Positions 22,596 through 63,757 of a DNA stretch of 64,000 bases are shown piece by piece. This DNA comes from Apostichopus japonicus (taxonomy: Eukaryota > Echinodermata > Holothuroidea > Aspidochirotida > Stichopodidae). A program made the translations under genes and the position numbers. Every line of letters begins with the position of its first letter. The first letter of the stretch is position 1. The stretch covers positions 4,029,501 to 4,093,500 of the forward strand of contig NC_092573.1 in assembly GCF_037975245.1 (NCBI RefSeq). The letters are read 5' to 3'. Below the pieces are notes generated by a model. It was not told the DNA's origin and ran no database searches. It worked only from the letters and a program-made list of their open reading frames with translations.

Positions 22596-22968
22596 CAGAG
22601 GTCAAAAGAAGTCAACGGGTGTCAAAGTCTGAAATCCTTTTAATCCTTCATAATAGTTTTTAGTGGAACCATGTAGTGATTCTAGGTACAGATTAAGCAT
22701 GCCAAACCCAAGATGAATAAATCCACAATTAGTATTTCTTTAGTAAAACCTATATACCACATCCTATTTCCCCATTGATGTTTAAAGCTGTTTACCTCTT
22801 TAGTAATGTCATGGGTTTGCTATTTCTTTGCTGTTTAGTATTTGAAGATTTTACAGTAGTTGGAAGGATGAAATTAATTTGGTTTTTTTTTTATGTTATG
22901 CTATTATGCAACAACATGTTTGCATCGTTTCTGTTATATCTTGAATTCAGTCATCTTGTTAACCATTA

Positions 22969-23866
22969 TTCTGTTATGAGTTCATAGCTTCTGATATTGG
23001 CATTGTGTTCACTTTGATGTAAACAGCTATTATGTTATAAGAACATAGCTTCTGATATTGGCATTGTGTTCACCTTGATGTAAACAGCTTTTCTGTTATA
23101 AGTACATAGTTTCTGGTATTGGCATTTTGTTCACCTCAATGTAAACAGCTTTTCTGTTATAAGTATATAGCTTCTGATATTAGCATTGTGTTCACCTTGA
23201 CGTAAACAGCTTTCTGTTATAAGTACATAGCTTCTGATATTGGCATTGTGTTCACCTTGATGTAAACAGCTATTCTGTTATAAGTACTTAGCTTCTGATG
23301 TTGGCATTGTGTTCACCTTGATGTAAACAGCTATTATGTTATAAGAACATAGCTTCTGATATTGGCATTGTGTTCACCTTGATGTAAACAGCTTTTCTGT
23401 TATAAGTACATAGTTTCTGGTATTGGCATTTTGTTCACCTCAATGTAAACAGCTTTTCTGTTATAAGTATATAGCTTCTGATATTAGCATTGTGTTCACC
23501 TTGACGTAAACAGCTTTCTGTTATAAGTACATAGCTTCTGATATTGGCATTGTGTTCACCTTGATGTAAACAGCTATTCTGTTATAAGTACTTAGCTTCT
23601 GATGTTGGCATTGTGTTCACCTTGATGTAAACAGCTTTTCTGTTATAAGTACTTAACTTCTGATATTGGCATTGCGTTCACCTTGTCAAAAGTACTTAGC
23701 CTCTGATATTAGCATTGTGTTCACCTTCATGTAAACAGCTTTTCTGTCATAAGTACTTAGCTTCTTGATGTTGGCATTGTGTTCACCTTGATGTAAACAG
23801 CTTTTCTGTTATAAGTACATAGCTTCTGATATTAGCATTGTGTTCACCTTGATGTAAACAGCTTTT
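22969..23866. repeat. 60-bp minisatellite, about 15 units, higher-order period about 304 bp
   Basis: The unit contains TTCTGTTATAAGTACATAGC, TTCTGATATTGGCATTGTGT and TCACCTTGATGTAAACAGCT. A variant series of five units (marked by CTATTATG, TTTCTGGTATT and CTTGACG) starts near 23027 and is repeated from 23331. It lies about 1.3 kb downstream of the KIAA0825 stop. Confidence 0.92.
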
Positions 23867-26047: not shown

Positions 26048-27122
26048 GACTATACTAAAATAATGTAATTAGCATTTAACCTAGTCATGTAAAGCCAGTC
26101 AATAAACGGCCATCATTTTATTAGTGTTATTGCAACGTTTTAGATTTAACATTTATACCAAACAGGAGGTCAGTTCAACTCGCAATAAAGCAACCTAGGC
26201 TATAGGCTAAGCAACCTGGCATAGGCTTGCTGTTGTGAATTAGTATAGTAAAAGCTTCATAATTGATGCGCCTAAAATATTACTAGCTACGATACAGCAG
26301 GCAACCTAAACCTTTTTTGCAGCGGAATAGAGTTACATATTTCATACGTTTGAATCCATTTCAGGTATGTGCTGATCAAATTGTAGTTTTTTATTAAGCT
26401 ATTAATACCCTCCCCAAGTTTTGCCCAAATTTGGGGCATTTGGATATCTTACTCCCTAAAAATAACCAAAATGTTATCAACATGATACCACTACTCTCTG
26501 GGACCTGAGCTAAGAGGCTCAGAGCATAGCAAACAGCACCAAGAGTCAGTGGATGCATACTTAGGCCTACACTACTTTAGCTTATCGACGAATGTATCAA
26601 CTTCGGGGTGTGAAAGATCTTGACATCGCAGACATTTTTCGTAGTATGTTAAGTAGGCACAGAACAAGAAATATTTTGAGATCTTTACAAATCCTTAAGT
26701 GCATCAATTATGAGCTCACCATGCTACACTACTAAAGTTCATAGACTCGGCCTACAACATTATGGGCCTAGAGGCTATATGTGTCCCTAATACTATATTT
26801 GTTCAGGCTAATGTATGAAACCAACTGTGTAGCTCCTAATCTAGAATCTAATAAATTGAGTCTCAGATTATGATAGGAAAATAATGACATTATTTACATT
26901 AATTCTAATCAGCATAATAAGGTCAATATCCGAACAGTGTGTGCTTGTGTACAGTATCAGCATGTCATAACCAAAACCCAAAAGCAAATGATTGCCTAGA
27001 CTTTGTTTTATGAAAGTCACAGTGTCTCTTAGAAGTTTCATTATTGTCTCTTGTCACAAAATACAGATACATCATACTCATAACTTTTTATTTCAGAATT
27101 TTTGAAAACTTCAATCCCAACC

Positions 27123-30100: not shown

Positions 30101-33100
30101 TGATAGCATCTTGTTACTTTAATGACAGACAACCGTCTTACTCATTGTTAAGTGATAACATCGCTGATCAAGATATGACCAGTAATCTTCTCTCTGAGTT
30201 TCACTACATCCCATCCATTTTCTATTTGAATAACTAGTTTATTAATTAGTGTGTACATACTCTGTAGGAACTCTGAATTACAAGTACTACAGTATATACC
30301 GTAATTCAATTAGTACAAAGGATAACACAGTACTTCTGTAGGAACTCTGTGAAACATCAATACTGTATTATTTTTCACTTATGGTTATTAGTTTAATCAC
30401 TTGATTGAATAGCAATTGCAGGCCAAAGTTCCATATGCAAATTAGCTAGTTCTATGAGAAACATTTTGTGTGAGTGTGTGTGTAGGGTGACACAATGTTG
30501 CTGCTTCAATGTAGGCTTGTATTCACTGACCTGTTATAAATGTTTTAATGGCAATAGAAGCGACTTTGAGCTTTCTGTATTCAGTCAGTTTGTTGCCCCA
30601 TAATCTATAATGTATTTCAACTTCAATTTGGAAGAGTTTTTATCCGAACATGTTCCCAATTTCCCTGTTTAATTAGCTGTTCATTCTTTCTCTATTTCTT
30701 TTAGTTTTTGCCGGATGTAAGATGTACATAGTGTATTGAGCCTTACATATACCATCACTTTTGCCAGACTGGTTCCAGTATTCCTAGCCAATTTTACCCC
30801 ATAAAGGTCATATACAGTTAATGCCCTCACCTTCATCCAGACTGGTTTCAATTTCATACTTAGCTATATTTCTTCTCCATGCAGTCATATGCAGAAGACT
30901 TGGACTTTAACGTTGCGGGAAGTTTCAGTAATGTTGATGTTGATCATGTGGACATGGTGAAGTTCCCACAGTTTGCTGACCTACCTTGGTATAGTGTTTC
31001 CATGGTAGCGGGCGACTGCTTGTATATCCCCTACAGGTGAGTAATCATCTTTAGGGGTGGTGGGATTTTGGCAGTCAAGCGACCCCTCATCATGGGTACC
31101 AATTTATGTACACATAATATGGAATAATTTTCAATTTAAGGTATAAAAATACCTGAAAGTGTTTCACACCCCACCAGATTAATATTATTATTTTTGAGCA
31201 GTAATTTGATACTATGAAGTGTTTCCTTTCTTTCCCACAAAGTGCTGTTGGTTGATATCGTAATGCCAGTTAATCACCATAACCTTTCCCCCTTCTCTGC
31301 CTTTTGGCTAAGATCATTTGTAGCATAATGTTCCCCTTCTAGGGGAATCTTGATACACACCTGAAGATGATCACAGTCTTGATGCATGTGGACTGGGGTT
31401 GAGAGCGGATCAGTCGTTTAGTAGTTGGTTTTTCGGGGCCAGGGTCTTTCCTGGGTGACTTTTCTTAAAAAATGTGCCAAAAGAAATGTTTTAGAGGTCG
31501 ACTTTGGTAGACATTGGAAGCTGTTTGTAATGCAAACAATTAGCCTAGCTCTATATATATTTGGGTAGTACCAGATTTGGTTGGGGGCTACCCCCCCCCC
31601 CCCCTCCCGTGTAGTGCATCCACTGCTGATCGCTGATATGATACTCTTCATCAAGTCATTGATGTATCACATGGAACATACCTCTGCAAAATGGTCCCTT
31701 TAGCGAATTCATCATGCCAATATTAATTGATATTGAGAGTATATTGTGAGACACAAGAATGGATAAACTATTTGTGATAACTCCTCAGCCAACAAGCCCA
31801 TTGATTTATAATGCATATATCCTCAGATGGGCCCACCAAGTCCGTTCAGCCGGCAGAAATCTTGCGATTAACATCTGGTTTGCCCATCAACACACCTTCG
31901 ATGACGAAGATTGTGAACGGAAGGGAGAATTACCAGAGTTTGCTCCTCTCAGTGATTTTGAAGTGACCGAAGCGTACGATGCACAAATGAGGTAAAGCTC
32001 TTCTTTGCAATGAGGTCATTGCTCTTTTCAGAATGATTGTGAAGTCATTAACTCGACTGCTGTTTCATCATCGCCCTCGTCTTTGTCATCTCGTTAGACG
32101 TCCTTCTTGTTGTAGTCATCAATGCCTAACAATTTTTGCTTCATCCTCTTCCTGTCCTCATCCTCATCCTCTTTGTCATCTTTTTTTTATCCTTCTTTCT
32201 TTTCTTCACCTTTTTCTTCTTCATTGTCGTCTTCTGCCTCATCCTCTTCATCTTTGTCGCAGATTTTGCCCCCGTTACTCCATCCCCTCCCCCCCCCATG
32301 TATTCCTCCTTCCCCCCCCAAATTCCATCCTCCACCTTGTCACCTCTTTTCTTTGCAAGAGTTGTTTGAAACACAAGAAAAAACAGATTTATGGTTTGAG
32401 TTTAAATACAATCATGAATCAGTAAGTCTTTTATAACTATTTGATCACTCTTCTAGCCTTATCTTGATGTCAACTCTATCTTTTTCATTCTACCAGAGGG
32501 GAGTTGTTACATTTTGCTGATATGAGAGGTGGCGTCTTAAAAGACAGTGATATACCCATTGGGATGGCTTATTTTGGTGCTGGTGAGGAAGAACTAAAAG
32601 CCGTGAGTAGTTTGTTTCTTCGTTATAGCAAAGCTTCATTTCTGATGATATATCTTTGTTTCATGAACCAAGTTGTTACGTATAGATTATTTCATAAAAT
32701 GTCAGCCGGATCTCTGCATGTCTGTTAGTATCTCTCTACTCTAGTTTATGCAAAGTAAAAATAGTCCCATTTCAGGGTGCAATCCTATTCTTCTTATGAA
32801 TTGTTGTCTTGTTAAATGGTTATGGATTCACTTCTTTTAATTTACTGTTAGATATGTCTTCAGGTTTTATTTGTATAAAATGCAGCCATTTTTCAGAAAT
32901 TAGTATAAACTAACTAGAAAGCAACAGAACAGCTTGATATTGTCAATTCGTGAACATCCCATTATAAATGTGAATGGTTTCATGTGAGAATTTTTTTCTT
33001 TATAATCCCTGACAAGAAACATAAATGAAATTGGACTTGGAGAAGTAAAAAGAATATTCAAATATTGAAATATGTAAATCTGGACTCGTTCTTCTTCTTC

Positions 33101-33328
33101 TACTTCCAGGTATTTAATTTCATGGATATCGATAGAGATGGAACGGTTACCAAAGAAGAAATTCAAGACGTTGACAGAGAGGCCTTTAAAGAGATCTTGG
33201 AAGCTTTAGAAGATGCAGATGCAACCGAATGGCAAGGAGAGCAGGAGGCAAATGATATTAATGACATTGATACAGACAGTCAAAAGTCAAAGAAGTCACA
33301 TCTCGAGACCAATAGATCAGAGCTGTGA
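27123..33328 (+). CDS. JmjC/cupin-domain EF-hand protein, copy 1 (seven exons, 418 aa)
   Basis: CDS exons: 27123-27415, 28458-28609, 29088-29257, 30885-31036, 31827-31991, 32497-32602, 33110-33328; all joins keep frame. A consensus acceptor at 27094-27096 suggests a noncoding first exon upstream. Residues 1 to about 27 form a signal-peptide-like segment (NYILCNLLVLILPGSIG). The JmjC fold shows the iron ligands H183-F-D185 and H259 and a likely 2-oxoglutarate lysine K198 (GTK). The 74-residue gap from D185 to H259 resembles that in KDM8 and related hydroxylases. Residues 352-363 form a canonical EF-hand loop (DIDRDGTVTKEE), with a possible degenerate hand before it in exon 6. The protein ends NRSEL, close to KDEL-type retrieval signals. 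I infer an ER-lumenal 2-oxoglutarate oxygenase; its substrate is unknown. The start is the first ATG after an in-frame stop at 27081. Confidence 0.85.
27475..28105. repeat. Tandem repeat of about 211 bp, three copies (JmjC copy 1, intron 1)
   Basis: Units start at 27475, 27687 and 27897 with ACCATTTTGTTTTTTATTGT and continue through TTTCTAGGTTGTTTTATACA to CCCAAAAGTACTT. Copies are almost identical. Confidence 0.92.
32100..32345. repeat. Pyrimidine-rich tract in JmjC copy 1 intron 5
   Basis: The plus strand is strongly C/T-rich with runs of TTC, CTC and poly-C. It creates low-complexity open frames in several frames that are not genes. The homologous tract in unit 2 lies at about 43820-44040. 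Confidence 0.8.
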
Positions 33329-36246
33329 TACCTGTTCTGGTTTTGTTGCTTTCTTCTTTTGATCGGTAACATTTTTTCAGTCTTCATTCCAAATTAATAC
33401 CATTCGGTTTTGTTACTTTCTTTGAAAAAGCTTCTACGGTAGGATTTCTCAAGTTTTATGAATAGTGGCTTTGCAATATATATCATGGTAGTGAGAGTTC
33501 AGTGGCGTAATTCTCTATGTAGGGGTAGGGGTGATGGGGAAAAGAAGTTGGTACCGAGGAAGGGGGAGAGGGTTAGGCAATATAATAGCCTACAGGTCGC
33601 AACCCATTGACAGATTTGAGAGTCCTTAAGAGAGTATATGTTATTTACTAGTAATTTCTCAATTTGACCTTTTCAGTTTTTGCTCTTTCCCTGTATAACA
33701 CTGACATGGTCAAATTGTACGTAAAAAAATGAAGAAAAAAATCCTTTTAAATCAACTGCCGTATTCAGAAATATCTCTTGTTTTATGACTGGCAATATAC
33801 AGATGTAAAAGCTTGCCATATAGAAAATAGTCGAAAACTGAATTGAACATTGTAAAACAAACTTTGGTTCATCTTCCAACAAACAGTAGTGCATGCGTGC
33901 CTCTCTACGTAGCTTCCTTTCCTAATAATTTATTATTACATTAAAAATTGGTGAACATTTCTGATGTGTGAATTCATTTGATACCTTTTGTATCCAAATG
34001 AAGCAGACGATATTATTGTCACAACTCGCACCGACCCATCCCTCACTTCTTCGTAATCCTTGGATTTATCATAGCATTCACTTGTAGTAGACTTTGAAAT
34101 ACCTAATATATTTTCCCGATTTTCTCCTTCGATTTCATTCTACTTCTGTTTTCAAATTTTCGGATATGTATTAGAGGCCTGCAGTATGACTGAAGGCATC
34201 AGTATCATTGTAACATGGTTACATTGATATACATTTTTCCTCAGCCCAGTCATTCATTCCTGCTTCCAGGAAACAATCACCAAGTGCCTTGAATGTTGAT
34301 TCTTTTGTTTCTGTATTTTCTGTATTTTTCTCTACTTTCATTAGTCTTTTGTACATTAAAAAGACTAAACACATAATGATGTGAAAGTTTCCAACCTTAC
34401 ATGAACTCCAAATTGGCATAAGAATTACTATAAATGTTGTATGACAAATGTTTCTTAGACAATATTTCTTTGACTGCCTTGTTTTGTAGATTATATTAAG
34501 CGTTGCTTTGAGTTTTGGATTTATTGGGGAGAATCTGTTAGCCAACTCGTTGCACATTATAAGATATATTATCTATTCATATAATACTTTTAAATGAGTT
34601 GGAAATGACACCTGGCTGGAACAACTTTTGTATACTGCTTGCATGTCACACTGCAAAACACTGGAAATGACACTTTGAATATCTTGTTTCTACGATTAGA
34701 TGAAGGTTGATAATGTTCATACTGTTATTAAGTACAATTGCCTTATAGTATGGTATGAAGGCTACAGCTAAGAGTGACACAAAACATTAGAAATTTGTTC
34801 TAATTGACTGGAAACAGTATTAATCTGAGTATGGATATTCATTTATTTATCTTGCTTCATACATTCTCACATTTGTTACTATTGGAATAGATAAAAAAGG
34901 CTAAATGGTCTTTCATATTTGTTACTTTTCTACTAAAATAAATCAGTTCTTATCTTGCCAGCAAACTTTAATGCCATATATTTTATACTGTTGTCAATAT
35001 ATAAAAGGTGATGGAAAAGTGAAAAAAAGGGTATTTTCATTTCTTTTTTCATAAATATATCAGTTGGTCTCCTTCAATGAAAGAATTCAATGATCATTAC
35101 CATTTTAATGCCAGGATCATAAGCCCCCCCCCCCCCCGCCATCCCATCCCCACTTATTCAGGTAGCTTTCTTTTGCTACCTTTGCCTTGGATTGTCTAAC
35201 ATCTGACTTGGTTGAAACAAAATATTACAATGCTGAATAACCTATCTACACCACATAAAGGGAAAGACTGTTCAGGCATTGAAGTACAAATGTTTATTCA
35301 GGACTGGTTGTACAAGGTACTACACTTCCCCAATGTAATTTTAATGGATCAAGACCAGACCCATCTCCCCACATGCCACCCACCCCTACCGCCCCTCTTC
35401 TTCTCAGTTCTAGTATATTTCTACATTTTCATTAATCCCTTGGTCCCTTTTCTTAGCTTTTCCACCAAGCTAAAAGCATTTGATGCCAATGATCATTTTG
35501 CATTACACTATCTAACCTGCCTCTTCACACATAATTATACTGTAGTTATTCATATCTGGCTAGTGAAGAAGAGTGTTGGTTAAGCTGTGTGTGGTACTGC
35601 GAATGCTACCTGCAAACCTGTATCGAGTTCAGATAATACAGCTCAATTAACGGAAACCAACCTGTCCATAGTAGAAATTGGTGTCAGAGTTCGTTTTTAG
35701 CAGCTTCAAATGAAAGCAAAGACGTTGCCTCTTGGTTTTTTTCATGTTTTGCACAGATCGATAAAATAATGGATATTGACAGCCTGGGCACAACCACCTT
35801 TCTTGTACTGGAGTGGGGGGGGGGGTCAGATGGTAAGTGAGGGGTATCATCTTCCCTTTAAGAAATTTCATTAAAATGGAGGATGTTTAGATGAAAATTG
35901 GTGCTATGTTTTGCAAGGTTTGAAACAATGTAACAAGTTTTCGACTGATTGGGTTATACCCCATAGGCATACACAGGCTATGTATTTACGTACTGTGCAC
36001 TAGGATTAATTGTAAAATTGTCTGCCAGTGAGTGGTAGGGGGTGTGTTAAGCCCACTGATCTTATTCTGGTGGTTAACCCTCACCCACCCCACCTATCTT
36101 CATCGGTCTATGACATTAACGTAAGAATTTCCAGTGTTGCGTTGTCTCGTAGTAATAATTCGATGCAAAGTGAAGATAACAGTACGTAGTACGTACAAGC
36201 AGATAGGGAAGTGTAATTGTTATGTGAGTGTAAATCTGGTGGACTG
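33329..36246. other. 3' flank of JmjC copy 1 and intergenic DNA
   Basis: This probably begins with the 3' UTR. It includes a CAGTGGCGTAATTC motif near 33500 that resembles hAT terminal sequence, and poly-C and poly-G runs near 35125 and 35815. No gene is seen. From about 35.2 kb the sequence is nearly identical to unit 2. Confidence 0.55.
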
Positions 36247-36424
36247 CATCGAGTTTAATAAATCTGGAGGATTTATGTCAATTGGGCGCGCGCGTACCAT
36301 GCATGGAGGGTCATTCGATGTCAACGGGTTTAATGATTCATTTACCTCAATGTTCGATGTGTTCCAGGGTGGTACCAAACTTATATTTCTCTGTAGCAGT
36401 TCGAGAATAGTGTTAGTGACTTCG

Positions 36425-36890
36425 GGTAGCATACGCCCATTAAAAGCCTCATTGACTTACACACTAAATCACAAAAGTAATGTCTTCTCTAAGCCTAGAT
36501 AGAAGTTTTCACTTGCTAAACGCTACCCATCACTGGATAGCTGACAAGTTGGCCTTTCATGGCACCTTCAATTTTCCGTACCATGACCATGTAGATTTTT
36601 TGCTACGAGAGCCGGAACTTTTCGTCACTTGTAAACAAACCTCTCCACTCAGTGGTAAACAAATTTCCTAAGCTGCTCCTTGGAGGCCTAAAGGGGTCTA
36701 AAATTGCCTCAATTGACCCAATTTTTTAACCACATGTGCTTCCATTCATGTTCTTTAACATCAAAGCCACAAAAAAGCACATCCTAATTGATAACATAGC
36801 AAAAAATTGTTCTCCTGTTCCTAATTGGCACTTTTCCTGAAGGAGAACATTTGCCGCGGATTGATATAGAGGCTAATAGGAGTATGCCAC
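36425..36890. mobile_element. Family A inverted-repeat element, 466 bp, unit 1 only
   Basis: The insertion is flanked by CTTCG at 36420-36424 and 36891-36895. The corresponding site in unit 2 (about 47706-47720) is empty and reads straight through. It is homologous throughout to 24779-25230, and its ends GGTAGCATAC and GTATGCCAC are inverted. It therefore inserted after the segmental duplication, or was lost precisely from unit 2. Confidence 0.88.
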
Positions 36891-36925
36891 CTTCGTGAAA
36901 GATTTGCACCAAGACGGATCGGACA

Positions 36926-37554
36926 TATGGCAAGCCGTTTTACCTTTTATTCGATATTTGATGATATCACCAAATATTTGGTGATATCAGCAAATAATTG
37001 TTGATATCAGCAATTATTTGGTGATATCAGCAAATGAATTGGTGATATCAGCAAATCATTTGATGATATCAGCAAATCATTTGATGATATCACCAAATCA
37101 TTTAATGATATCAGCAATTCGGTTCCTCATATCACTAATTAATTAGTGATATGTCGGAATTGTTGATATCAGCAAATGATTTGCTGATATCATCAATTCA
37201 ATTGCTGATATCACCAATTCATTTGCTGATATCAGTAAATATTTGCTGATATCACCAATTCATTTGCTGATATCAGCAAATATTTGTTGATATCAGCTAT
37301 TATTTATTGATATCAGCAATTATTTGGTGATATCAACAAATGAATTGGTGATATCAGCAAATGAATTGGTGATATCAACAATTATTTGGTGATATCAGCA
37401 AATAATTGTTGATATCAGCAATTATTTGATAATATCATCAAATCATTTGATAATATCAGCAATTAATTGTTGATATCATTAATTATTTGCTGATATCACC
37501 AAATATTTGATGATATCATCAAATATCGAATAAAAAGTAAAACGGCTTGCCATA
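36926..37554. mobile_element. GATATC palindrome-array element, unit 1 (629 bp)
   Basis: CGGACA flanks it at 36920-36925 and 37555-37560. The ends are inverted (TATGGCAAGCCGTTTTAC against its complement, with ATTCGATATTTGATGATATC inside). The interior is a run of about 27 units of roughly 20 bp, each centred on TGATATCA and joined by AAATNATTT-like palindromic spacers. A distinct centre contains CACTAATTAATTAGTG. No coding potential is seen. Confidence 0.85.
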
Positions 37555-38697
37555 CGGACATGGGAACTAACGGCGTAAGAAGGTACTGGTACTTCAGGCC
37601 TACGAAATAGTGCTAATATGCTAACGTTAGACATGCTGGCACAGAACAAGTACAGATACATTGGGCTTGCAGCGGGAAATGTCGATGTCTGAATTGTATT
37701 TCAAGAACGATTTTTTGTCGAAAAGGATTTTTGACAACTGTGGAACTACTGATTTGGTTCACACGCAGTGCTTGATGAATACACATCCCGCTGCAAGCCC
37801 AATGTATCTGTACTTGTTCTGTGCCAGCATGTCTAACGTCAGCATATTAGCACTATTTCGTAGGCCAGTACCTTCTTACGCCGTTAGTTTACATGTCCGA
37901 TCCGTCTTAGTGCAAATCTTTCACGAAGTCACTAACCCTATTCTCGAACTGCTACAGAGAAATATCAGTTTGGAACACATCACATGACCCTCCATGCATG
38001 GTACGCGCGTCCAATTGACATGAATCCTCCAGATTGATTAAACTCGATGATGGATGGTGGCATCAGAAAAATAACCAAAATGTTATCAACATGATACCAC
38101 TACTCTCTGGGACCTGAGCTTAGAGGCTCAGAGCATAGCAAACAGCATCAAGAGTCAGTGGATGTATACTTAGGCCTACACTACTTTAGCTTATCGACGA
38201 ATGTATCAACTTCGGGGTGTGAAAGATCTTGACATCGCAGACATTTTGTCGTCAAATTCTGCTCAATGGTATGTTGCGTAGGCACAGAACAAGAAATATT
38301 TTGAGATCTTTACAAATCCTTAAGTGCATCAATTATGAGCTCACCATGCTACACTACTAAAGTTCATAGACTCGGCCTACAACATTATGGGCCTAGAGGC
38401 TATATGATGTGTCCCTAATACTATATTTGTTCAGGCTAATGTATAGGAAAATAATGACATTATTTACATTAATTCTAATCAGCGTAATATGGTCAATATT
38501 ATCCCAACAGTGTGTGCTTGTGTACAGTATCAGCATGTCATAACCAAAACCCAAAAGCAAATGATTGCCTAGACTTTGTTTCATGAAAGTCACAGTGTCT
38601 CTTAGACTTTTCATTATTGTCTCTTGTCACAAAATACAGATACACTTCATACTCATAACTTTTTATTTCAGAATTTTTGAAAACTTCAATCCCAACC

Positions 38698-41600
38698 ATG
38701 ATGCTCAACCGTTCAGAGTATGTTACCATTGGAAATTACATCCTCTGCAACCTACTGGTTCTGATCCTCCCTGGATCAATCGGACACAAATTTAAAGTCG
38801 GAGTCGATAACCCAGGTCACATGCTTCCCCTCGGGTCCCATAGACCCCCAGAATCTCCAGGCGTTGATATTTTACCGTCAGCTCCACATCCTCAGCAATT
38901 TTACCAGAACTATGTCCGGGGTAGCCGACCTTTCCTTATAAAAGGACATGCCAAGGATATGCCTGCCTTCAAGCTCTGGAATGACAACTATTTAAAGTAA
39001 GTCTCAGTTGGATTTCCTCTATATAGAGCACTGTTTACAACAATCTAGTTTACAAATCATTTTGTTTTTTATTGTGACTGTTTGGATGTAAACCAATTCT
39101 TTCTAGGTTGTTTTATACAGGCTGGGATCTTCATTTGCTCAATGATGAAATAAATGTTAGATGAATAAAATGTTAAGGATGTAACAAATACAAAAGTTTT
39201 ACTAAAGCCCAAAGCTCACATTCCATTGGCTATCCCCATTGTGTACAGCCCAAAAGTACTTAACAACCATTTTGTTTTTTATTGTGACTGTTTGGAAGTA
39301 AACTAATTCTTTCTAGGTTGTTTTATACAGGCTGGGATCTTCATTTGCTCAATGATGAAAGAAATGTTAGATGAATAAAATGTTAAGGATGTAACAAAAT
39401 ACACAAGTTTAACTAAAGCCCAAAGCTCACATTCCATTGGCTATCCCCATTGTGTAGAGCCCAAAAGTACTTCTTCAGCTGTACCTGAGTTCATACCATT
39501 CTTGCACTGCATGCCAGTAAAAACACATTCCATTCCTTTGTGATGCACAAAGATTTGGTGGTATTGTCTTATTGTATGCCACCTGGGCAGTATTAGCAGG
39601 CTGTCAGATGTAACTAGGAGGTGGAGAAACTGTTCTTAAATAGAGAATAATGAGATTTATGCTTGAAGCCTACAGATGAGGGTGAGTTGCCTTCTTGCAA
39701 ATGACCACTGTTTACTTTGTAAGTTTACTTACTGGCTGGAGTTTAATGTAATTTTTTAGTTTTTGTTTGTTTTCTTGTGGTGTTATATAGTTTAAGTTCT
39801 CCTATTTGATTTTTTTGTTGGCACCAGATCTAAGTATGGTCACCTCAGTGTAGATGTAGAACAAGGAAAGAAGGAAAACAGATCGAAGAGCCTCTGGACG
39901 ATGCCATTGAAAGAATTCCTCAACCAGTACAATGACAGTGACATCTACATGGTAAACAGCCTTCCCAAGCAAATGATGGGTATGCACTTGATCATGCTTC
40001 GTCTTCGTAATGTTAATCAGTTGATGGAGCTCTGTTTTGTTGCAAGTACCTCTCAGACCATATGTCTGAGCTGTACATTGTGTTGCATGACATTCTGTTG
40101 GATGCATTTACTAACAGTGTCTCTGACAGGCTTCCAATATATGGGATGCCTGTTAACAGTGTAACCTGGAAGCTTAAATGGAGCCAGTGAAATGTTGCAG
40201 GGAGACAAATTGCGGTAAAATAATTGGGAGGCTGTTTTTCTATTAACCTAGAGCCCCCCACACACACTCCCCCCAATTTGCATCCACTGTTTTGTTTCAC
40301 ATCACTAAGTAAAGACCACATTATAGATTTCATGAAAACTTTGATTAATTTTTGGAAAACTAAAATTGGATGGCTAATGGGCTGTGTAACATTATGTTAC
40401 AAATATCTGTTTTTCATTTGTTTTATGTTGCAGGTGATGTATGGATCATTAAGAGTTTGCTATGTGGTGGTTTCCTTGACAACCTGATGGATGCAGTTTC
40501 CTGGTTCAGCAGTGGTGGTACCAATTCAACATTTCACTTTGATGCTTTAGATAATATTAATTGTCTCCTTGATGGGACAAAACAGCTAGTCTTAGTACCA
40601 AGGGTAAGAAGTTCTCCATGGCACACTTTAAGTTTACTCATATTACTGTATGTTGACATGTTTTAGTCTGAAATAGCCATGTGTTTGTTGATTTGAATAT
40701 CTTGAAAGATTTATTGTTTTGCTGAAATTATTTGTAATTTAATAGTAGCTTATTTGACCCCCATCATATGGAGTTAGAGACAAATTTGTCAGAGAAACAA
40801 ATTTGTCAGCTAAGAGAGAAAAATTGGAAATAGTTGCCATATTTTTGGCATTTGACTTTGTGTCAGCCATAGTGCTTTCTTTACACCCAAATATTTCTCT
40901 GTAAAATCTGTGCTATAAAACCATATAATGGGATATACCTTAATGTAGCTTATAAGTAGGGGGTTCTGTGCCTGAAAATCAGGAACCGAATTACTTACTG
41001 TCTTCAGTTACTGTACAAATGCAGAACCATATTTACTCAACCAATCAAGTTTGACCATGAAAGTAAATAAGGAATCTTGCAAATATTCTTAAACATCATT
41101 GATAAACTTCATTTACTTGAAACTGTGTGTAAGCAAAGTATTGATGAATTGTAATTGATGATCTAAGCAATATTCTGGCCTTGAGATCTAATTTAAGATC
41201 TAATTTGAAGCTTCTGTATTTGTCAGCTACTTCTCTTTCTTTATAACAAAGGATTTTAATTGTTAATTTAATTGTGAATTTGATTGTTAACTGTATTTAG
41301 AACCCAGGTGCCCAAAGGACATAAAGTAGTTATTGTTTCAGTGTCATGCAGCAGGGGATTTTATTTAGTCTCGATCATGTTTTAGTCATACTCTGTTTTT
41401 TGTTGGACACTTTTTAATTTAATAATGAAACTGTGATGAGAGACACAATGCCTGACTTGATAGCATCTTGTTACTTAATGACAGACAATCGTCTTACTCA
41501 TTATTAAGTGATAACATCGCTGATCAAGATATGACCAGTGATCTTCTCTCTGAGTTTCACTACAATCCCTCAATTTTCTGTTTGAATAACTACTGTATTA

Positions 41601-44600
41601 ATTAGTGTGTTCATACAGTACTCTGTAGGAACTCTGTGAAGCATCAATACCGTATTTCTTTTCACTTATGGTTATTAGTTTAATCACTTGATTGAATAGC
41701 AATTGCAGCCCAAAGTTCCATATGCAAATTAGCTAGTTCTATGAGAAACATTTTGTGTGTGTGTGTGTAGGGTGACACTATGTTGCTGCTTCCATGTAGG
41801 CTTGTATTCACTGACCTGTTGTAATGAATTTAATGGCAATAGAAGCGACTCTGAGCCATCTGTATTCAGTTACTTTGTTGCCCTTAATTTATAACATATT
41901 TGGAAGAGTTTTTATCCGTACATGTTCCCAATTTCCCTTTTGAAGGCTTTATTAATAATTCTCAATTAGCTATTCATTTCTTCAATCCTTTCTCTACTCT
42001 TGTAGTTTCAGCCAGATGGAAGATGTACATAATGTATTGAGCGTTTCAGATACCATCACTTTTGACCGACTGGTTCCAGCGTCATTCCTAGCCATTTTCC
42101 CCCATGATAAAGTCTTATATACACACAAACACACATAATACTTAAGTGTTAATGCCCTCACCTTCATCCAGACTGGTTTCAATTTCAGCTATATTTCTTC
42201 TCCATGCAGTCATATGCAGAAGACTTGGACTTCAACGTTGCGGGAAGTTTCAGTAATGTTGATGTTGATCATGTGGACATGGTGAAGTTCCCACAGTTTG
42301 CTGACCTACCTTGGTATAGTGTTTCCATGATAGCGGGCGACTGCTTGTATATCCCCTACAGGTGAGTAATCATCGCAAGGGCGTAGGAACCGGGGGGGCT
42401 GGGGGGGCGCCAGCCCCCCCAGTGAAAAATGTGGAGGGGCGGAAGTATCATTCCGCCCCCCGCTTCGCAAGTCAGAAAACCCCTTTTTCATTTCCAAATG
42501 AGAAAAAAATCTCATTTGGAGCACCAAATTGCATCTAAGGCCTGGTGAAAATACAAAATTAAGTTTACAAAATGGAGTGGGTGTTGACGTGTGCTATATT
42601 GCACCAAATTGCATCTGAGGCTACCTGGAAATGCAAAAAGTTCCAAAGGGGAGGGGGACACCCCCTCCCCCAGGCCGGCCATCAGTCTTCAGCCCCCCAC
42701 TCAAAAGTACCTTCCTACGCCACTGAATCATCGTTAGGGGTGGTGGGTAGGTTAAATATTTTAATAGGTGGGATTTTGGCAGTCAAGCGCCCCCTCATCA
42801 TGGGTATCAATTTATGTACACATAATATGGAATTATTTTCAATTTAAGGTGTAAAAATACCTGAAAATGTTTCACACCCTACCAGATTCATGTTATTATT
42901 TTTGAGCAGTAATTTGATACTATGAAGTGTTTCCTTTCTTTCCCACAAAGTGCTGTTGGTTGATAACGTAATGCCAGTTAATCACCATAACCTTTCTTGC
43001 TTCTCTGCCTTTTGGCTAAGATCATTTGTAGCATTATCTTGATACACACCTGAAGATGATCACAGTCTTGATGCATGGGGACTGGGGTTGAGAACAGATC
43101 AGTCGTTTAGTAGTTGGTTTTTTCGTGCCCAGGGTCTTTCCTGGGTGACTTTTCTTAAAAAATGTGCCAATAGAAATGTTTTAGAGGCTGACTTTGGTAG
43201 GCATTGGAAGCTGTTTGTAATGCAAACAATTAGCCTAGCTCTTTATATATTTGGATAGTACCAGATTTGGTTGGGGGCTACCTCCCCCCCCCCTCCCGTG
43301 TAGTGCAGCCACTGCTGATCGCTGATATGTTACTCTTCATCAAGTCATTGATGTATCACATGGAACATACCTCTACAAAATGGTCCCTTTAGCGAATTCA
43401 TCATGCCAATATTAACTGATATTGAGAGTATATTGTGAGACACAAGAATGGATAAAATATTTGTGATAACTCCTCAGCCAACAAGCCCATTGATTTATAA
43501 AGCATATATCCTCAGATGGGCCCACCAAGTCCGTTCAGCCGGCAGAAATCTTGCGATTAACATCTGGTTTGCCCATCAACACACCTTCGATGACGAAGAT
43601 TGTGAACGGAAGGGAGAATTACCAGAGTTTGCTCCTCTCAGTGATTTTGAAGTGACCGAAGCGTTCGATGCACAAATGAGGTAAAGCTCTTCTTTGCAAT
43701 GAGGTCATTGCTCTTTTCAGAATGATTGTGAAGTCATTAACTCGACTGCTGTTTCATCATCGCCTGCATCTTTGTCATCTCGTTAGTCGTAGCTCTTGTT
43801 GTAGTCATCAACAATCTAACAATTTTTGCTTCATCCTCTTCCTGTCCTCATCCTTATCATCTTTGTCATCTTCTTTATCCTTCTTCTTTTCTTCACCTTT
43901 TTTTTCTTCATTGTCGTTTTCTACTTCATCCTCTTCATCTATGTCGCAGATTTTCCCCCCGTTACTCCATCCTCCTCTCCCCCCATGTATAACAATCCTC
44001 CCCCCCCCAAATTCCATCCTCCACCTTATCACCTCTTTGATTTGCAAGAGGAACGTTGTTTGAAACACAAGAAAAAATAGATTTATGGTATGAGTTAAAT
44101 ACAATCATGAATCAGTTAGTCTTCTATTACTATTTTATCACTTTTCTAGCCTTATCTTGATGCCTTCTCTATATTTTTCATTCTACCAGAGGGGAGTTGT
44201 TACATTTTGTTGATATGAGAGGTGGAGTCTTAAAAGAAAGTGACATTCCCGTTGGGGTGGATTTTTTTGGTGCTGGTGTGGAAGAACTAAAAGCCGTGAG
44301 TAGTTTTGTTTCTTGGTTATGCAAAGCTTCATTTCTGATGATATATCTTTGTTTCATGAACCAAGTTGTTACGTATAGATTATTTCATAAAATGTCAGCC
44401 GGATCTCTGCATGTCTGTTAGTATCTCTCTACTCTAGTTAATGCAAAGTAAAAATAGTCCCCTTTCAGGGTGCAATCCTATTCTTCTTATGAATTGTTGT
44501 CTTGTTAAATGGTTATGGATTCACTTCTTTTAATTACCTGTTAGATATGTCTTCTGGTTTTATTTGTATAAAATGCAGCCATTTTTCAGAAATTAGTAAA

Positions 44601-45058
44601 AACTAACTAGAAAGCAACAGAACAGCTTGATATTGTCAATTAGTGAACATCCCATTATATGTGAATGGTTTCATGTGAGAATTTTTTTCTTTATAATCCC
44701 TGACAAGAAACATAAATGAAATTGGACTTGGAGTAGTAAAAAGAATATTGTAATATTGAATTATGTAAATCTGGACTCATTCTCCTTCTACTTCCAGGTA
44801 TTTAATTTCATGGATATCGATAGAGATGGAATGGTTACCAAAGAAGAAATTCAAGACGTTGACAGAGAGGCCTTTAAAGAGATCTTGGAAGCTTTAGAAG
44901 ATGCAGATGCAACCGAATGGCAAGGAGAGGAGGAGGAGGAGGAGGAGGAGGAGGAGGAGGAGGAGGAGGAGGAGGAGGCAAATAATATTAATGACATTGA
45001 TACAGACAGTCAAACGTCGAAGAAGTCACATCTCGAGACCAATAGATCAGAGCTGTAA
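38698..45058 (+). CDS. JmjC/cupin-domain EF-hand protein, copy 2 (seven exons, 434 aa)
   Basis: CDS exons: 38698-38996, 39828-39979, 40434-40603, 42210-42361, 43516-43680, 44190-44295, 44798-45058, all in frame. Architecture matches copy 1: signal peptide, JmjC ligands H185-F-D187 and H261, EF-hand loop at residues 354-365 (DIDRDGMVTKEE), C-terminal NRSEL. Differences include two extra residues (FK) after GHK near the N-terminus. An NST glycosylation sequon starts four residues before the iron-binding histidine (copy 1 has KSV). Seven amino-acid changes fall in the short exon 6. Seventeen consecutive Glu replace EQE after the EF-hand. The reading frame is intact, so it is probably a functional paralogue; which copy is expressed is unknown. 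Confidence 0.85.
39055..39480. repeat. Tandem repeat of about 211 bp, two copies (JmjC copy 2, intron 1)
   Basis: These are the same units as at 27475-28105, starting near 39055 and 39267. One unit fewer is present than in copy 1. Confidence 0.9.
42376..42725. mobile_element. hAT-like MITE, 350 bp, in JmjC copy 2 intron 4
   Basis: AATCATCG flanks the element at 42368-42375 and 42726-42733, while copy 1 has a single AATCATCT at the empty site. The ends are inverted: CAAGGGCGTAGGAACC on the left and, on the complement, CAGTGGCGTAGGAAGG on the right. An 8-bp target duplication and CAGTG-type ends are the hAT superfamily signature. The interior is G/C-run rich and noncoding. Confidence 0.88.
44927..44977 (+). 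repeat. (GAG)17 coding microsatellite in JmjC copy 2
   Basis: Seventeen uninterrupted GAG codons encode polyglutamate after the EF-hand. The copy 1 equivalent is GAG CAG GAG, so 14 codons were gained without shifting frame. Confidence 0.95.
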
Positions 45059-47537
45059 TACCTGTTCTGTTTTTGTTACTTTCTTATTGGTAACATTTTT
45101 CAGTCTTCGATCCACAAAAATACCATTCGGTTTCGTTACTTTCTTTGAAAAAAGCTTCTACAGTAAGATTTCCTCAAGTTTTATGAATAGTGGCTTTGCA
45201 ATATTGTCATGGTAGTGAGAGTTCAGTGGCATAATTCGCTTTGTAGGGGTAGGGGTGATGGGGAAAAGAAGTTGGTACCGAGGAAGGGGGAGAGGGTTAG
45301 GCAATACAATAGCCTGTTGCAACCCATTGGCTCGTCCAGATTTGAGAGTCCTTAAGAGAGTAGATGTTATCTACTAGTTATTTCTTAATTTGACCTTTTC
45401 AGTAAAAACATTCCTTTTTAATCAACTGCCATATTCGGAAATATCTCTTGTATTATGTCTGGCAAAATACAGTCGATTAATTTAATTTTACTTCTTTTTA
45501 CAAATTTTCCGATATGTATTAGAGGCTGCAGTATGACTTGAGGCATCAGTATCATTGTAACATGGTAACATTGATATACATTTTGCCTCAGCCCAGTCAT
45601 CCAATCCTTCTTACAGGAAACAATCACGAAGTGCCTTGAATGTTGATTCTTTTGTTTCTGTATTTTTCTCTACTTTCATTAGTCTTTTGTACATTAAAAA
45701 GTCTAAACACATAATGATGTGAAAGTTTCCAACCTTAAATGAACTCCAATGACAAATGTTTCCCTCAGACAACATTTCTTTGACTGCCTTGTTTTGTAGA
45801 TTATTTTAAGCTTTGCTTTGAGTTTTGGATTTATCTGAGAGACTCTGTAAGCCACCTCATGGCACATTATAAGATTCATATAAGACTTTCAAATGTGTTG
45901 GAAATGACACCTGGTTGGAACAGATTTTTGTATACTGCTTGCATGTCATACTGCAAAACACTGGAAATGACAGTTTGAATATCTTGTTTCTAGGATTAGA
46001 TGAAGGTTGATAATGTTCATATTGTTATTAAGTACAATTGCCTTAAAGTATGGCATGAAGGCTACAGCTAAGAGTGACACTAAACATTAGAAATTTGTTC
46101 TAATTGTCTGGAAACAGTACTCTGAGTAATAGTATACATATTCATTGATTTATCTTGCTCCATACAATCTCACATTTGTTACTAGATAAAAAAGGCTGAA
46201 TGGTCTTTCATATTTGTTACTTTTCTACTTAAATCAGTTCTTATCTTGCCAGCAATCTTTAATGCCATATATTTTATACTGTTGTCAATATATAAAAGGT
46301 GATGGAAAAATGAAAATAGAGTATTTTTATTTCTTTTTGCATAAATATATCAGTTGGTCTCCTTCAATGAAAGAATTCAATGATCATTACCATTTTAATG
46401 CCAGGATCATAAGCCCCCCCCCCCCCCCGCCATCCCATCCCCACTTATTCAGGTAGTTTTCTTGTACTACTTTTGCCTTGGATTGTCTAACATCTGACTT
46501 GGTTGAAACGAAATATTACAATGCTGAATAACCTATCTACACTACATAAAGGGAAAGACTGTTCAGGCATTGAAGTACAAATGTTTATTCAGGACTGGTT
46601 GTACAAGGTACTACACTTCCCCAATGTAATTTTAATGGATCAAGACCAGACCCATCTCCCCACATGCCACCCACCCCTACCGCCCCTCTTCTTCTCAGTT
46701 CTAGTATATTTCTACATTTTCATTAATCCCTTGGTCCCTTTTCTTAGCTTTTCCACCAAGCTAAAAGCATTTGATGCCAATGATCATTTTGCATTACACT
46801 ATCTAACCTGCCTCTTCACACATAATTATACTGTAGTTATTCATATCTGGCTAGTGAAGAAGAGTGTTGGTTAAGCTGTGTGTGGTACTGCGAATGCTAC
46901 CTGCAAACCTGTATCGAGTTCAGATAATACAGCTCAATTAACGGAAACCAACCTGTCCATAGTAGAAATTGGTGTCAGAGTTCGTTTTTAGCAGCTTCAA
47001 ATGAAAGCAAAGACGTTGCCTCTTGGTTTTTTTCATGTTTTGCACAGATCGATAAAATAATGGATATTGACAGCCTGGGCACAACCACCTTTCTTGTACT
47101 GGAGTGGGGGGGGGGGGTCAGATGGTAAGTGAGGGGTATCATCTTCCCTTTAAGAAATTTCATTAAAATGGAGGATGTTTAGATGAAAATTGGTGCTATG
47201 TTTTGCAAGGTTTGAAACAATGTAACAAGTTTTCGACTGATTGGGTTATACCCCATAGGCATACACAGGCTATGTATCACGTACTGTGCACTAGGATTTA
47301 TTGTAAAATTGTCTGCCAGTGAGTGGTAGGGGGTGTGTTAAGCCCACTGATCTTATTCTGGTGGATAACCCTCACCCACCCCACCTATCTTCATCGGTCT
47401 ATGACATTAACGTAAGAATTTCCAGTGTTGCGTTGTCTCGTAGTAATGATTCGATGCAAAGTGAAGATAACAGTACGTAGTACGTACAAGCAGATAGGGA
47501 AGTGTAATTGTTATGTGAGTGTAAATCTGGTGGATTG
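45059..47537. other. 3' flank of JmjC copy 2 and intergenic DNA
   Basis: This is homologous to 33329-36246. It has several deletions in the first half and near identity in the second half. No gene is seen; short frames shared with unit 1 (for example 46503-46874) are unremarkable. Confidence 0.55.
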
Positions 47538-49073
47538 CATCGAGTTTAATAAATCTGGAGGATTTATGTCAATTGGGCGCGCGCGTACCTTGCATGGAGG
47601 GTCATTCGATGTCAACGAGTTTAATGATTCATTTACCTCAATGTTCGATGTGTTCCAGGGTGGTACCAAACTGATATTTCTCTGTAGCAGTTCGAGAATA
47701 GTGTTAGTGACTTCGTAAAAGATTTGCACCAAGACGGATCGGACATATGGCAAGCCGTTTTACCTTTTATTCGATATTTGATGATATCACCAAATATTCG
47801 GTGATATCAGCAAATAATTGTTGATATCATCAAATCATTTGATGATATCATCAAATAATTGCTGATATCAACAATTATTTGCTGATATCACCAAATAATT
47901 GTTGATATCAGCAATTCATTTGCTGATATCACCAATTCATTTGCTGATATCACCAATTCATTTGTTGATATCATCAAATAATTGCTGATATCAACAAATA
48001 ATTGCTGATATCAACAAATATTTACAGATATCAGCAATTATTTGGTGATATCAGCAAATGAATTGGTGATATCAGCAAATCATTTGATGATATCAGCAAA
48101 TCATTTAATGATATCAGCAATTCGGTTCCTCATATCACTAATTAATTAGTGATATGTCGGAATTGTTGATATCAGCAAATGATTTGCTGATATCATCAAT
48201 TCAATTGCTGATATCACCAATTCATTTGCTGATATCAGTAAATATTTGCTGATATCACCAATTCATTTGCTGATATCAGCAAATATTTGTTGATATCAGC
48301 TATTATTTATTGATATCAGCAATTATTTGGTGATATCAACAAATGAATTGGTGATATCAGCAAATGAATTGCTGATATCAGCAAATGAATTGCTGATATC
48401 AACAATTATTTGGTGATATCAGCAAATAATTGTTGATATCAGCAATTATTTGATGATATCATCAGATCATTTGATGATATCAGCAATTAATTGTTGATAT
48501 CATTAATTATTTGCTGATATCACCAAATATTTGATGATATCATCAAATATCGAATAAAAAGTAAAACGGCTTGCCATACGGACATGGGAACTAACGGCGT
48601 AAGAAGGTACTGGTACTTCAGGCCTACGAAATAGTGCTAATATGCTAACGTTAGACATGCTGGCACAGAACAAGTACAGATACATTGGGCTTGCAGCGGG
48701 AAATGTCAATGTCTGAATTGTATTTCAAGAACGATTTTTTGTCGAAAAGGATTTTTGACAACTGTGGAACTACTGATTTGGTTCACATGCAGTGCTTGAT
48801 AAATACACATCCCGCTGCAAGCCCAATGTATCTGTACTTGTTCTGTGCCAGCATGTCTAACGTCAGCATATTAGCACTATTTCGTAGGCCAGTACCTTCT
48901 TACGCCGTTAGTTTACATGTCCGATCCGTCTTAGTGCAAATCTTTCACGAAGTCACTAACACTATTCTCGAACTGCTACAGAGAAATATCAGTTTGGAAC
49001 ACATCACATGACCCTCCGTGCATGGTACGCGCGTCCAATTGACATGAATCCTCCAGATTGATTAAACTCGATG
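47538..49073. mobile_element. Foldback element, unit 2
   Basis: Same inverted arms as at 36247-38049 (CATCGAGTTTAAT at 47538, ATTAAACTCGATG ending at 49073). It lacks the family A insertion but contains the GATATC element. The end lies about 95 bp from the SNX24-like start codon. Confidence 0.8.
47746..48578. mobile_element. GATATC palindrome-array element, unit 2 (833 bp)
   Basis: It has the same ends and the same CGGACA flanks (47740-47745 and 48579-48584) as the unit 1 copy, so the insertion predates the duplication. The internal array is 204 bp longer, which is about ten extra units of roughly 20 bp. Confidence 0.85.
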
Positions 49074-55796: not shown

Positions 55797-55915
55797 CTAA
55801 CCTAGCTAAACCTAACCTAGCTAAACCTAACCTAGCTAAACCTAACCTAGCTAAACCTAACCTAGCTAAACCTAACCTAGCTAAACCTAACCTAGCTAAA
55901 CCTAACCTAGCTAAA
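55797..55915. repeat. 15-bp satellite (CTAACCTAGCTAAAC)n, about 8 perfect copies
   Basis: The unit repeats without visible substitutions, so the array is young. It contains CCTAA on this strand and TTAGG on the other, but it is not a telomeric array. Its 15-base period gives an artefactual LAKPN-repeat frame. Confidence 0.95.
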
Positions 55916-59800: not shown

Positions 59801-62800
59801 ATAGTGGGAAGAGGGTAGGACCTGACCCTGGATAGTGAGAGGGGTAAACCAGACAAATGTTGATATTACAATGTCAATCTTACCAACCACCTGAGAATGT
59901 GTGTACAGATTTTCTTCTGTTGATGACAATTTTGAAAGTTGAAAGGGACATTCCAGTGGCTGGAGTTTATTGTTTAGTAAAAATTGCTTGGAATTTATGG
60001 CATCGTTAGGTCAAAACCACATACTTAAAGGAGACCCAAATTCGCAAAACTTTGTGAAATTTTACGAAGGCATCTGGAAACAGCAGCCTTAGTGATATCA
60101 TCATGGTAATGCATTATCTTTGTTTCTCAGCAAGGTTTCTTAATGTACAGCTTCCACAGATGGAAAATAATATTATGGCAAACCGTTTGAACAGTGATGA
60201 AATCCTACATGCAGATCATGTAAAGCAAAGACTTCATGTAAGAGTCACAGTGTGTTACACTAATATCTACCTGTGGACTGGTCATAAAACATGCCCCATT
60301 TATAAAGATATCATAATTATAATAGCTTTTATGAAACAGAAGGACACAAGACACTGTTTTCATACCTCTGAGATGAGATGCTTGGCAGAAGCATCTGCAA
60401 TAGCGACACCATCATGGGTGCTTGTTCCTCTTCCTAGCTCATCCATTATCACCAGACTCCTCGGTGTAGCTTCAGCAAGGATGGTGGAGGCTTCCATTAG
60501 CTCTACCATGAAGGTGCTCTGATGCTTGAAGATGTTGTCCGATGCGCCCATCCTATCATAAAAGTGAAATGGAATGGAGGTTTTGTAAATCAGATTACTG
60601 GTTGTTACCGTAAATGATCACAGCATCTATATGACTATTTATATTGATATGTTACAGTAGTGGTTAATCCTCATATTAAACTTCACCTATGGTATATATG
60701 ATGCACAAACAATTTTTGCAACAAGAAAACCAAGCATGACATTAAACACAATTGGAATATCAAAGTGGGTCACAGAATCTAAAATATCTGGAGTATTGCA
60801 GACAATTTAAGTATTTAAACCAATCCTAGTACTAAAATGGTGGACTAATCTTTTGAACACAGCATCCATCATACTAATGGGTGAACTCACCTTGTGCAAA
60901 CAGCATCTACTGGACTGACAGATGAACTCACCTTGTGTATGAAGCATCCAACTGATTAGCAGATGACCTCACCTTGTGCAAACAGCATCTACTGGACTGA
61001 CAGATGGACTCACCTTGTGTACGAAGCATCCAACTGATTAGCAGATGACCTCACCTTATGTATATAACATCTACTGGACTAATGGGTGAACTCACCTTGT
61101 GTACATAGCATACATCTGACTTGTGGATGACCTCACCTTATGTATATAAGATCTAGTGGATTACTGGAAGAACTCACCTTATGCATATAACATCTACTGG
61201 ACTAATGGGTGAACTCACCTTGTGTACATAGCATACATCTGACTTGTGGATGACCTCACCTTATGTATATAACATCTACTGGATTACTGGAAGAACTCAC
61301 CTTATGCATTTAACATCTACTGGACTAATGGGTGAACTCACCTTGTGTACATAGCATACATCTGACTTGTGGATGACCTCACCTTATGTATATAACATCT
61401 ACTGGATTACTGGAAGAACTCACCTTATGCATATAACATCTACTGGACTAATGGGTGAACTCACCTTGTGTACATAGCATACATCTGACTTGTGGATGAC
61501 CTCACCTTATGTATACAACATCTACTGGACTAATGGGTGAACTCACCTTGTGTACATAGCATACATCTGACTTGTGGATGACCTCACCTTATGTATATAA
61601 CATCTACTGGATTACTGGAAGAACTCACCTAATGCATATAACATCTACTGGACTAATGGGTGAACTCACCTTGTGTACATAGCATACATCTGACTTGTGG
61701 ATGACCTCACCTTATGTATATAACATCTACTGGATTACTGGAAGAACTCACCTTATGCATATAACATCTACTGGATTAATGGGTGAACTCACCTTGTGTA
61801 CATAGCATACATCTGACTTGTGGATGACCTCACCTTATGTATATAACATCTACTGGATTACTGGAAGAACTCACCTTATGCATATAACATCTACTGGACT
61901 AATGGGTGAACTCACCTTGTGTACATAGCATACATCTGACTAGTGGATGACATTACATTATGCATATAACATCCACTGAAATGATGGACTAATGGATGAA
62001 CTCACTATAGCATCCTCTTGACTTGACTAATGGATGTAGTTACCATAGCATCCTCTTGCCTAGCGGATGAACTCACCTTTTGTCTATAATATCTACTGGA
62101 ATAATGGATGAACTCACCATAGCATCTTCCTGTCAAGTGGATGAACTTATCTTATGTATGTAATATCGTCTTGACTAATGGATGAACTCACCATAGCATC
62201 CTCTTGCCTAGTGGATGAACTTACTCACCTTTGTATATACAACATCTCCTGGATAAATGGATGAACTCACCATAGCATCCTCTTGCCTAGTGGATGAACT
62301 AACTCACCTTTGTATGTATACAACATCTCCTGGATAAATGGATGAACTCACCATAGCATCCTATTGCCTCGTGGATGAACTCACCTTTTGTATATAATAT
62401 CTACTGGAATAATGGATGAACTCACCATAGCATCTTCCTGTCAAGTGGATGAACTTACCTTATGTATGTAATATCGTCTTGACCAATGGATGAACTCACC
62501 ATAGCATCCTCTTGCCTAGTGGATGAACTTACTCACCTTTGTAACATCTCCTGGATAAATGGATGAACTCACCATAGCATCCTCTTGCCTAGTGGATGAA
62601 CTAACTCACCTTTGTATGTATACAACATCTCCTGGATAAATGGATGAACTCACCATAGCATCCTATTGCCTAGTGGATGAACTCACCTTATGCATATATC
62701 ATCTACTGGACTAATGGATGAACTCACCTTATGTATACAGCATCAACAGGTGTAATGGATGCACTCTCTGCTGGTACATAACTCCCCAACTGTGCAAGTA

Positions 62801-63757
62801 TTACAATCAACGCCACTTGCTTCAAATATGAGCTCTTACCGCCCATATTCGGTCCTGAGATACAAAGGAACCTTTCTTTGTCTGCCTGATGAGGAGAAAA
62901 AAACAGGAAATCCAACAAAATAGAAAAACAAAGAGGATGAAAAATGAATATACCTCACTGACTTTGGTTAATAGTTTAAATTAATTAACAGATTTTTTTT
63001 TCTTTAAACACCAATCAATGATTGTTATTGGTTAACCTTGAATTCATTACCTCCTGGTTTATCATCCAATCAGCGTTCACCATCAACTTTAGAGAATGAT
63101 CGTAGTCAGCTCAAAAAACCAAACCAAACCAAAAACCTCAAAAACCTGTACCTTTAGTGACAAGTTATCAACAATTTTAAACTAACTAAAATCAAGAAGA
63201 ATCCTCATACAAATCATAACTTGAGAATGGTATCTTTTAGTCTGACGCCTTATAATGTCGGAGTAGCTGAATAAACAAGTCTTTCTTCATCGTTTATACA
63301 ACTACTCTTAAAGTTTCTTGTTAATAAAGTTCAAGTCAACTAAGAGTTTAACACGCTGAACTATTTCATGCATGTCCTTTTCTTGCTCTGTTGAACAATG
63401 CTGTGACCTAGAATAACGTAAACATGATTTTCAGTGTTAATCACTTTGAACTATCTTTTCACTCTCCCTACAGACATGATAAATGCTTGCCCAGATACTT
63501 TCACTTTTCTTTCCTTCTGCAAAATTTCAAAATATGATTACTGTACTCTATAAGTCTAGTTTCTTTTCTGTTCATGTTTGTTTAAAAATCAAAACTGATA
63601 TAAATATAAAGACAAAATTGACTGTAAACTGTCTGTTACCTCCAAGTGTGTACTGTTCGGCACATATTGCCCGCCTTCCCCGAGTAAGGAGCTGACCACA
63701 GGATGCCGACCGTTCTCGATGTGAATGGTTGCTATGGAGCTGTCTAAGATTTCAGGT
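56853..63757 (-). CDS. MSH3: DNA mismatch repair protein MSH3, C-terminal part (last six exons)
   Basis: Exons in transcript order: 63757-63640, 62885-62728, 60552-60366, 59549-59426, 57894-57717, 56940-56853 (stop 56855-56853). All splice phases agree. This gives 283 residues; the rest (human MSH3 has 1137) lies beyond the window. The MutS ATPase is complete. ENGRHPVV comes first, then Walker [10 protein letters not shown] with the following lysine-rich [19 protein letters not shown]. Next are [15 protein letters not shown] and Walker [17 protein letters not shown], then [18 protein letters not shown] and [13 protein letters not shown]. Details such as YHMSFL and THYPP favour MSH3 over MSH6. 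With MSH2 it forms MutS-beta, which recognises insertion/deletion loops in the nucleus. The last exon ([11 protein letters not shown]) is short and less conserved but matches the human C-terminus in position. The intron between exons 62885-62728 and 60552-60366 is largely minisatellite. Confidence 0.95.
60885..62727 (-). repeat. MSH3 intronic minisatellite carrying repeated splice-donor cores
   Basis: The array runs right up to the donor of exon 62885-62728. Left part (about 60885-61960): units of about 48 bp arranged in a threefold higher-order unit of about 143 bp. Right part (about 61960-62727): related units with CACCATAGCATCCTCTTGCC. On the transcribed (minus) strand nearly every subunit contains GGTGAG, often inside CATAAGGTGAGTTCATCC, the sequence of the real exon/intron boundary. 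I counted about 40 GGTGAG copies by eye besides the true donor. Confidence 0.93.

Follow-up and report, generated by a model that had tools for sequence, protein, structure and literature searches.

The window, by which we mean the whole 64,000-nt stretch of DNA that was analyzed, has a G+C content of 36.5% and gave no matches in either the Rfam or the tRNA scan. Its minus strand carries part of an MSH3 gene, in which the exon encoding the Walker A motif (GPNMGGKSS; 62728-62885, 158 nt) has a phase-2 end (ATA AG), its 3′ end reading CATAAG/GTGAGTTCATCC across the splice junction. The next exon, covering the Walker B region (60366-60552, 187 nt), is preceded by the acceptor TATGATAG, and between the two lies a phase-2 intron of 2175 nt (60553-62727, minus strand), 1855 nt of which (to 60873) consist of a tandem array. 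The true 5′ splice site, GTGAGT at 62722-62727, has a U1 duplex energy of -10.7 kcal/mol and includes an in-frame TGA (62726-62724). When the protein obtained by splicing 62885-62728 to 60552-60366 was searched, solved MSH3 chains matched across the junction, with the best match (E = 8.3e-43) covering residues 671-782 of a 918-residue construct and the second (1.2e-42) residues 887-998 of an 1137-residue chain, both of which we take to be human. The same two-exon product matched Pfam MutS_V at 9.7e-50, so the gene, strand and Walker A exon named in an earlier sequence-only reading of this DNA were correctly assigned. The intron after the Walker B exon coincides, by a two-residue extrapolation of the alignment, with the start of a human exon at c.3001 (residue 1000), a position given by the listing of the variant c.3001-2A>C in the available part of PMC8629245. 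This part of MSH3 thus appears to retain an old intron; the literature searched gave no human position for the intron that holds the array.

Directly behind the Walker A exon, a minisatellite of 47 head-to-tail units occupies 1.86 kb of the intron. The division into units starts at the true donor and yields mostly 41-nt units, the remainder being 33-49 nt long, while Tandem Repeats Finder (TRF) reports the same region as a set of overlapping rows, of which 60873-61978 and 62021-62728 are the main ones and one with a 41-bp period (62670-62766) extends into the exon. The array is real, and the original count of about 40 copies was too low. The boundary first drawn at 62727 also misses part of the homology, which crosses the junction and continues over roughly the last 41 nt of the exon, to approximately 62768. 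Two layers of higher-order structure are present, a pattern that recurrent unequal exchange would generate. In the proximal part (62006-62727, minus strand; 19 units, u01-u19, 33-44 nt long), longer and shorter units take turns, and the pattern recurs every 308 bp or so (94% matches in TRF), a distance of eight units (lag 8 gives 90% identity). The distal part (60850-62005, minus strand; 28 units, u20-u47) is made of 41-nt units except for the first (49 nt) and has a 123-bp, three-unit period, with 88% identity at lag 3; the 90% identity at lag 11 arises because one set is one unit short. The last distal units have diverged. The array ends at 60873 according to TRF and at 60850 by unit division. 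Three unit strings of 11-13 nt did not occur anywhere else in the window.

The array had been described as copies of the 5′ splice site. The donor is indeed copied, but each unit also copies coding sequence: the last 41 nt of the Walker A exon (62728-62768, minus strand), which encode 14 residues, share 33 of 41 positions with the unit consensus when the two are set in exact register. By comparison, the best of 124,016 other window positions reached 24/41, shuffling the exon tail 200,000 times never gave more than 24, and the two 41-nt stretches that come before it in the exon scored only 14 and 8. Individual units share 20-33 identities with the exon tail, the short units scoring lower, and both TATACATAAG, which stands before the junction, and CATCCATTA have the same letters in exon and consensus. 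This agreement bears out the proposal that the array grew from the exon-intron junction, with a unit that spans the boundary and combines exon and donor sequence. The donor end of the unit, GTGAGTT, agrees with the exon's GAGAGTG at five of seven positions (about 2% by chance), and may derive either from the exon or from the old start of the intron. Since the source stretch of the exon aligns to solved MSH3 without gaps (the MSH3 alignment was the one inspected for gaps; bacterial MutS matches have equal spans in the same table), the exon is the older copy and the intron units are its descendants, copying having run from exon to intron.

Homology in register over the full 41-nt unit, with its seven donor letters included, would also be expected had the intron itself been gained at this place: a tandem copy of the last 41 nt of the exon could have become a donor through the single change from GAGAGT to GTGAGT, leaving the array as a residue. 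Intron gain by tandem duplication is described in the part of PMC3087553 available to us, and it shares with the MSH3 array a tandem duplication across an exon-intron boundary. In the described cases, so far as that source goes, a new intron was the result, whereas the MSH3 acceptor is not repeat-derived. It borders position 60553, about 300 nt beyond the array, where no 41-nt stretch exceeds 24/41 to the unit, and the duplicated segment therefore does not supply both splice sites. The next MSH3 intron, moreover, is the old one matching the human exon start at c.3001 (PMC8629245, in part), and we consider gain of the intron by this route rather unlikely.

Several further tandem arrays occur in the window. 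Compared with the MSH3 unit, shuffled sequences scored as high in 19 of 1000 trials for the array at 11250 (plus strand), 38 for that at 14387 (plus strand) and 5 for that at 22967 (minus strand), a slight resemblance that a shared GTGA core may explain; the arrays at 7283 and 20618 showed no resemblance to the unit (971 and 301 of 1000 shuffles as high). No junction was recognizable by eye at the start of the arrays at 7283, 20618 and 27474. The array at 14387-14546 (plus strand; 47 bp, 3.4 copies) starts 4 nt short of the donor at 14391, which belongs to a predicted exon (14339-14390); this exon and its join to the next were read by eye. The units of this array come from the intron and read GTCT/GTGAGT, and the nearest copy of the junction reaches just 14/24, so that we rejected the array as a second boundary-duplicating repeat. 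A 33-nt stretch, TGTTATAATGCATCCCCCCACCCCTCCCCCGGC, occurs twice (14230-14262 and 14545-14577, plus strand), flanking this exon and its array. A 61-bp minisatellite at 22967-23866 reads ACATCAAG/GTGAACAC on the minus strand, which is donor-like, and no exon is shown there. At 11250-11896 (plus strand), a 33-bp minisatellite carries GTGAGTCC in many units, in sense with a plus-strand gene and about 290 nt from the nearest visible donor. Two regions of the plus strand (about 27000-38000 and 38600-49000) appear to be a tandem gene duplication, in which reading frames recur almost unchanged at a distance of about 11-11.6 kb. Cupin_8 matches, an EF-hand match below the Pfam cut-off and an intronic 210-bp repeat (three units) belong to the first copy, and both copies contain a 20-bp array (36954 and 47774). 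Finally, a 15-bp array of CTAACCTAGCTAAAC at 55797-55915 has 7.9 copies with 100% matches, and TRF lists another array at 56262 as well as some short ones.

To score donors, we used the duplex energy with the 5′ end of U1, in the letters we presume for it, and took the 6981 other GTs of the window as reference. On the sense strand, 43 of the 190 GTs in the array (the true donor and 42 copies) pair with U1 as well as the top 1% of that reference, and 23 of these 42 copies equal or surpass the true donor. None of the 74 antisense GTs ranks so high, the best reaching -6.6 against -10.7 kcal/mol. The dozens of sense donors claimed at the outset are therefore present, and they differ clearly from ordinary GTs in the scoring that had been named as a way to refute them. 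Nearly all units (43 of 47, the true one included) open with a top-1% donor, leaving four in which the donor is damaged. The donor string runs on the minus strand as first described, and GGTGAG occurs 42 times and CATAAGGTGAG 15 times in the array; the 14-mer CATAAG/GTGAGTTC, said to be often intact, is present but was found only 7 times with the true junction included, making 'often' generous. The AG/GT splice signal is retained in many units.

We also searched for a near copy of the junction 24-mer within 2.5 kb of nine placeable donors (five in MSH3 and four in plus-strand genes), and found 23/24 for the array donor against 14-16 for the other eight. Among 400 random control GTs (taken outside tandem arrays, between 3000 and 61000), the 95% point was 17, 14 reached 18, five reached 20 and the highest was 23. 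A high junction-copy score alone is no proof; the proof lies in the 41-nt match together with the array.

Tandem repeats across exon-intron boundaries are known as 'mirages' from the lancelet Adh3 and globin genes, where, according to the available part of PMC3087553, AG/GT is kept in many units, lengths are unstable and the data suggest that regular splicing is undisturbed. Similar repeats are reported for lancelet PGBD5, with troponin C cited, in the portion of PMC3902484 at hand. As far as these partial sources show, lancelet Adh3, BflGb6, BflGb9 and PGBD5 resemble the MSH3 array in having a duplicated exon-intron boundary, AG/GT in many units and an ordinary protein gene as host. They differ in scale, in that the MSH3 array has 47 units and two higher-order layers while BflGb6 has 6 and 3 units of 150-160 bp; unit lengths in Adh3 are 10-72 bp (PMC3087553, same part). 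Because it has the three features that can be tested in sequence (a boundary-spanning unit, a tandem array and retained AG/GT), we place the MSH3 array with the mirages by architecture. Repeats of earthworm metallothionein genes are located in the first intron, with spanning of a junction not mentioned in the part of PMC12783039 available. The literature searched, mostly outside subscription journals, contained no report of the MSH3 array.

What the copied donors might do is limited by the reading frame. Past the true donor, the exon end ATA AG continues as AGG TGA, placing a stop in frame (ORF 62724-62954), so every extension terminates at once and the copies cannot productively replace the true donor; the suggestion that they could buffer its loss fails for this reason. 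The decoy or exon-extending effects also suggested are possible in principle, though they would yield a truncated frame if the copies were used, and by this frame the copies could act only as a loss-of-product decoy. The array has 43 strong donors in 1.9 kb, and 23 crude acceptor-like YAG sites in it pass a pyrimidine test that the real acceptor also passes; combined with the donors, these sites would give micro-exons of roughly 20 nt. With both kinds of site, the array could well affect splicing.

A regulatory version of this idea holds that some MSH3 transcripts use the copies, stop after the Walker A exon and undergo nonsense-mediated decay, with array length tuning MSH3 output. The number of strong sense copies and the in-frame TGA in every extension are consistent with it, as is the higher predicted accessibility of the 9-nt site in 7 of the 42 copies than in the true donor. 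A precedent exists in the human IFI6 (6-16) minisatellite, whose repeat units bear multiple splice donors, two downstream units being said to be used in differing isoforms (PMC4526556, in part, citing Turri 1995). Like the MSH3 array, IFI6 has donor-bearing units downstream of an exon, but, on what that source gives, its downstream units produce isoforms, whereas in MSH3 the TGA directly after the normal exon end closes the frame and downstream use leads to an immediate stop. Against regulation by decay, 35 of the 42 copies are not predicted to be more accessible than the true donor, and in lancelets, mirages are said to leave splicing undisturbed (PMC3087553, PMC3902484, both in part).

Nor did the donor columns show significant selection, a further point against this function. 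Counting changes by parsimony on a tree of the related units, which can serve as a rough guide only, the 9 donor columns took 12 changes and the 32 others 72 (P = 0.11), and the core GGTGAG took 9 in its 6 columns, compared with 75 in the other 35 (P = 0.36). For unit positions 1-12 the counts were 16 against 68 (P = 0.04), but this was the most favorable of three sets and was not corrected for multiple testing. Entropy over the 47 units is lower in the donor columns (0.34 versus 0.67 bit), the donor window ranking fourth lowest of 41, but, the units being related to one another, this difference adds no independent evidence. We therefore regard use of the copies with subsequent decay as distinctly unlikely, and an active, length-variable switch in which array length sets the loss of MSH3 to decay as very improbable. 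Were such a switch real, a minisatellite would regulate one of the proteins governing repeat stability; we found nothing tying the array to that role of MSH3, and the link put forward in the sequence-only reading is not supported.

U1 sites are also known to suppress premature polyadenylation in introns (telescripting), and the array, with its 43 strong U1 sites in sense only, might be seen as a platform that holds off such events. The donor columns again lack significant constraint, and there is little within the intron for U1 to suppress because the sense strand of its 2175 nt contains no AATAAA or ATTAAA. This we consider extremely improbable.

We favor, with a probability of about 0.8, the reading that the array belongs to the boundary-duplicating minisatellites called mirages, amplified from the exon tail and its donor and tolerated without a selected function. 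The homology shows that the last 30-41 nt or so of the Walker A exon were duplicated in tandem together with the donor, after which unequal exchange or slippage would have amplified the duplicate to 47 units. Later rounds may have amplified sets of units, giving rise to the 308-bp and 123-bp higher-order repeats. Lying wholly behind the true donor, all copies are removed with the intron whenever that donor is used, and most transcripts probably use this first donor. The array is thus most likely a tolerated by-product, and both its tolerance and its instability are presumed here.

The type of repeat is little known but already described, and the MSH3 case is a large, clear example seeded from the end of a coding exon. 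It shows that the number of units can far exceed the 3-6 that the available part of PMC3087553 reports for BflGb6, a globin gene of lancelets, and, if the host is not a lancelet, that mirages have a wider range than in the literature searched. The direction of copying can be read here, as ancient protein constraint holds the exon. The locus is useful for studying how minisatellites begin, and it provides a natural setting in which to ask how, among 43 donors of nearly equal strength, the splicing machinery settles on the first.
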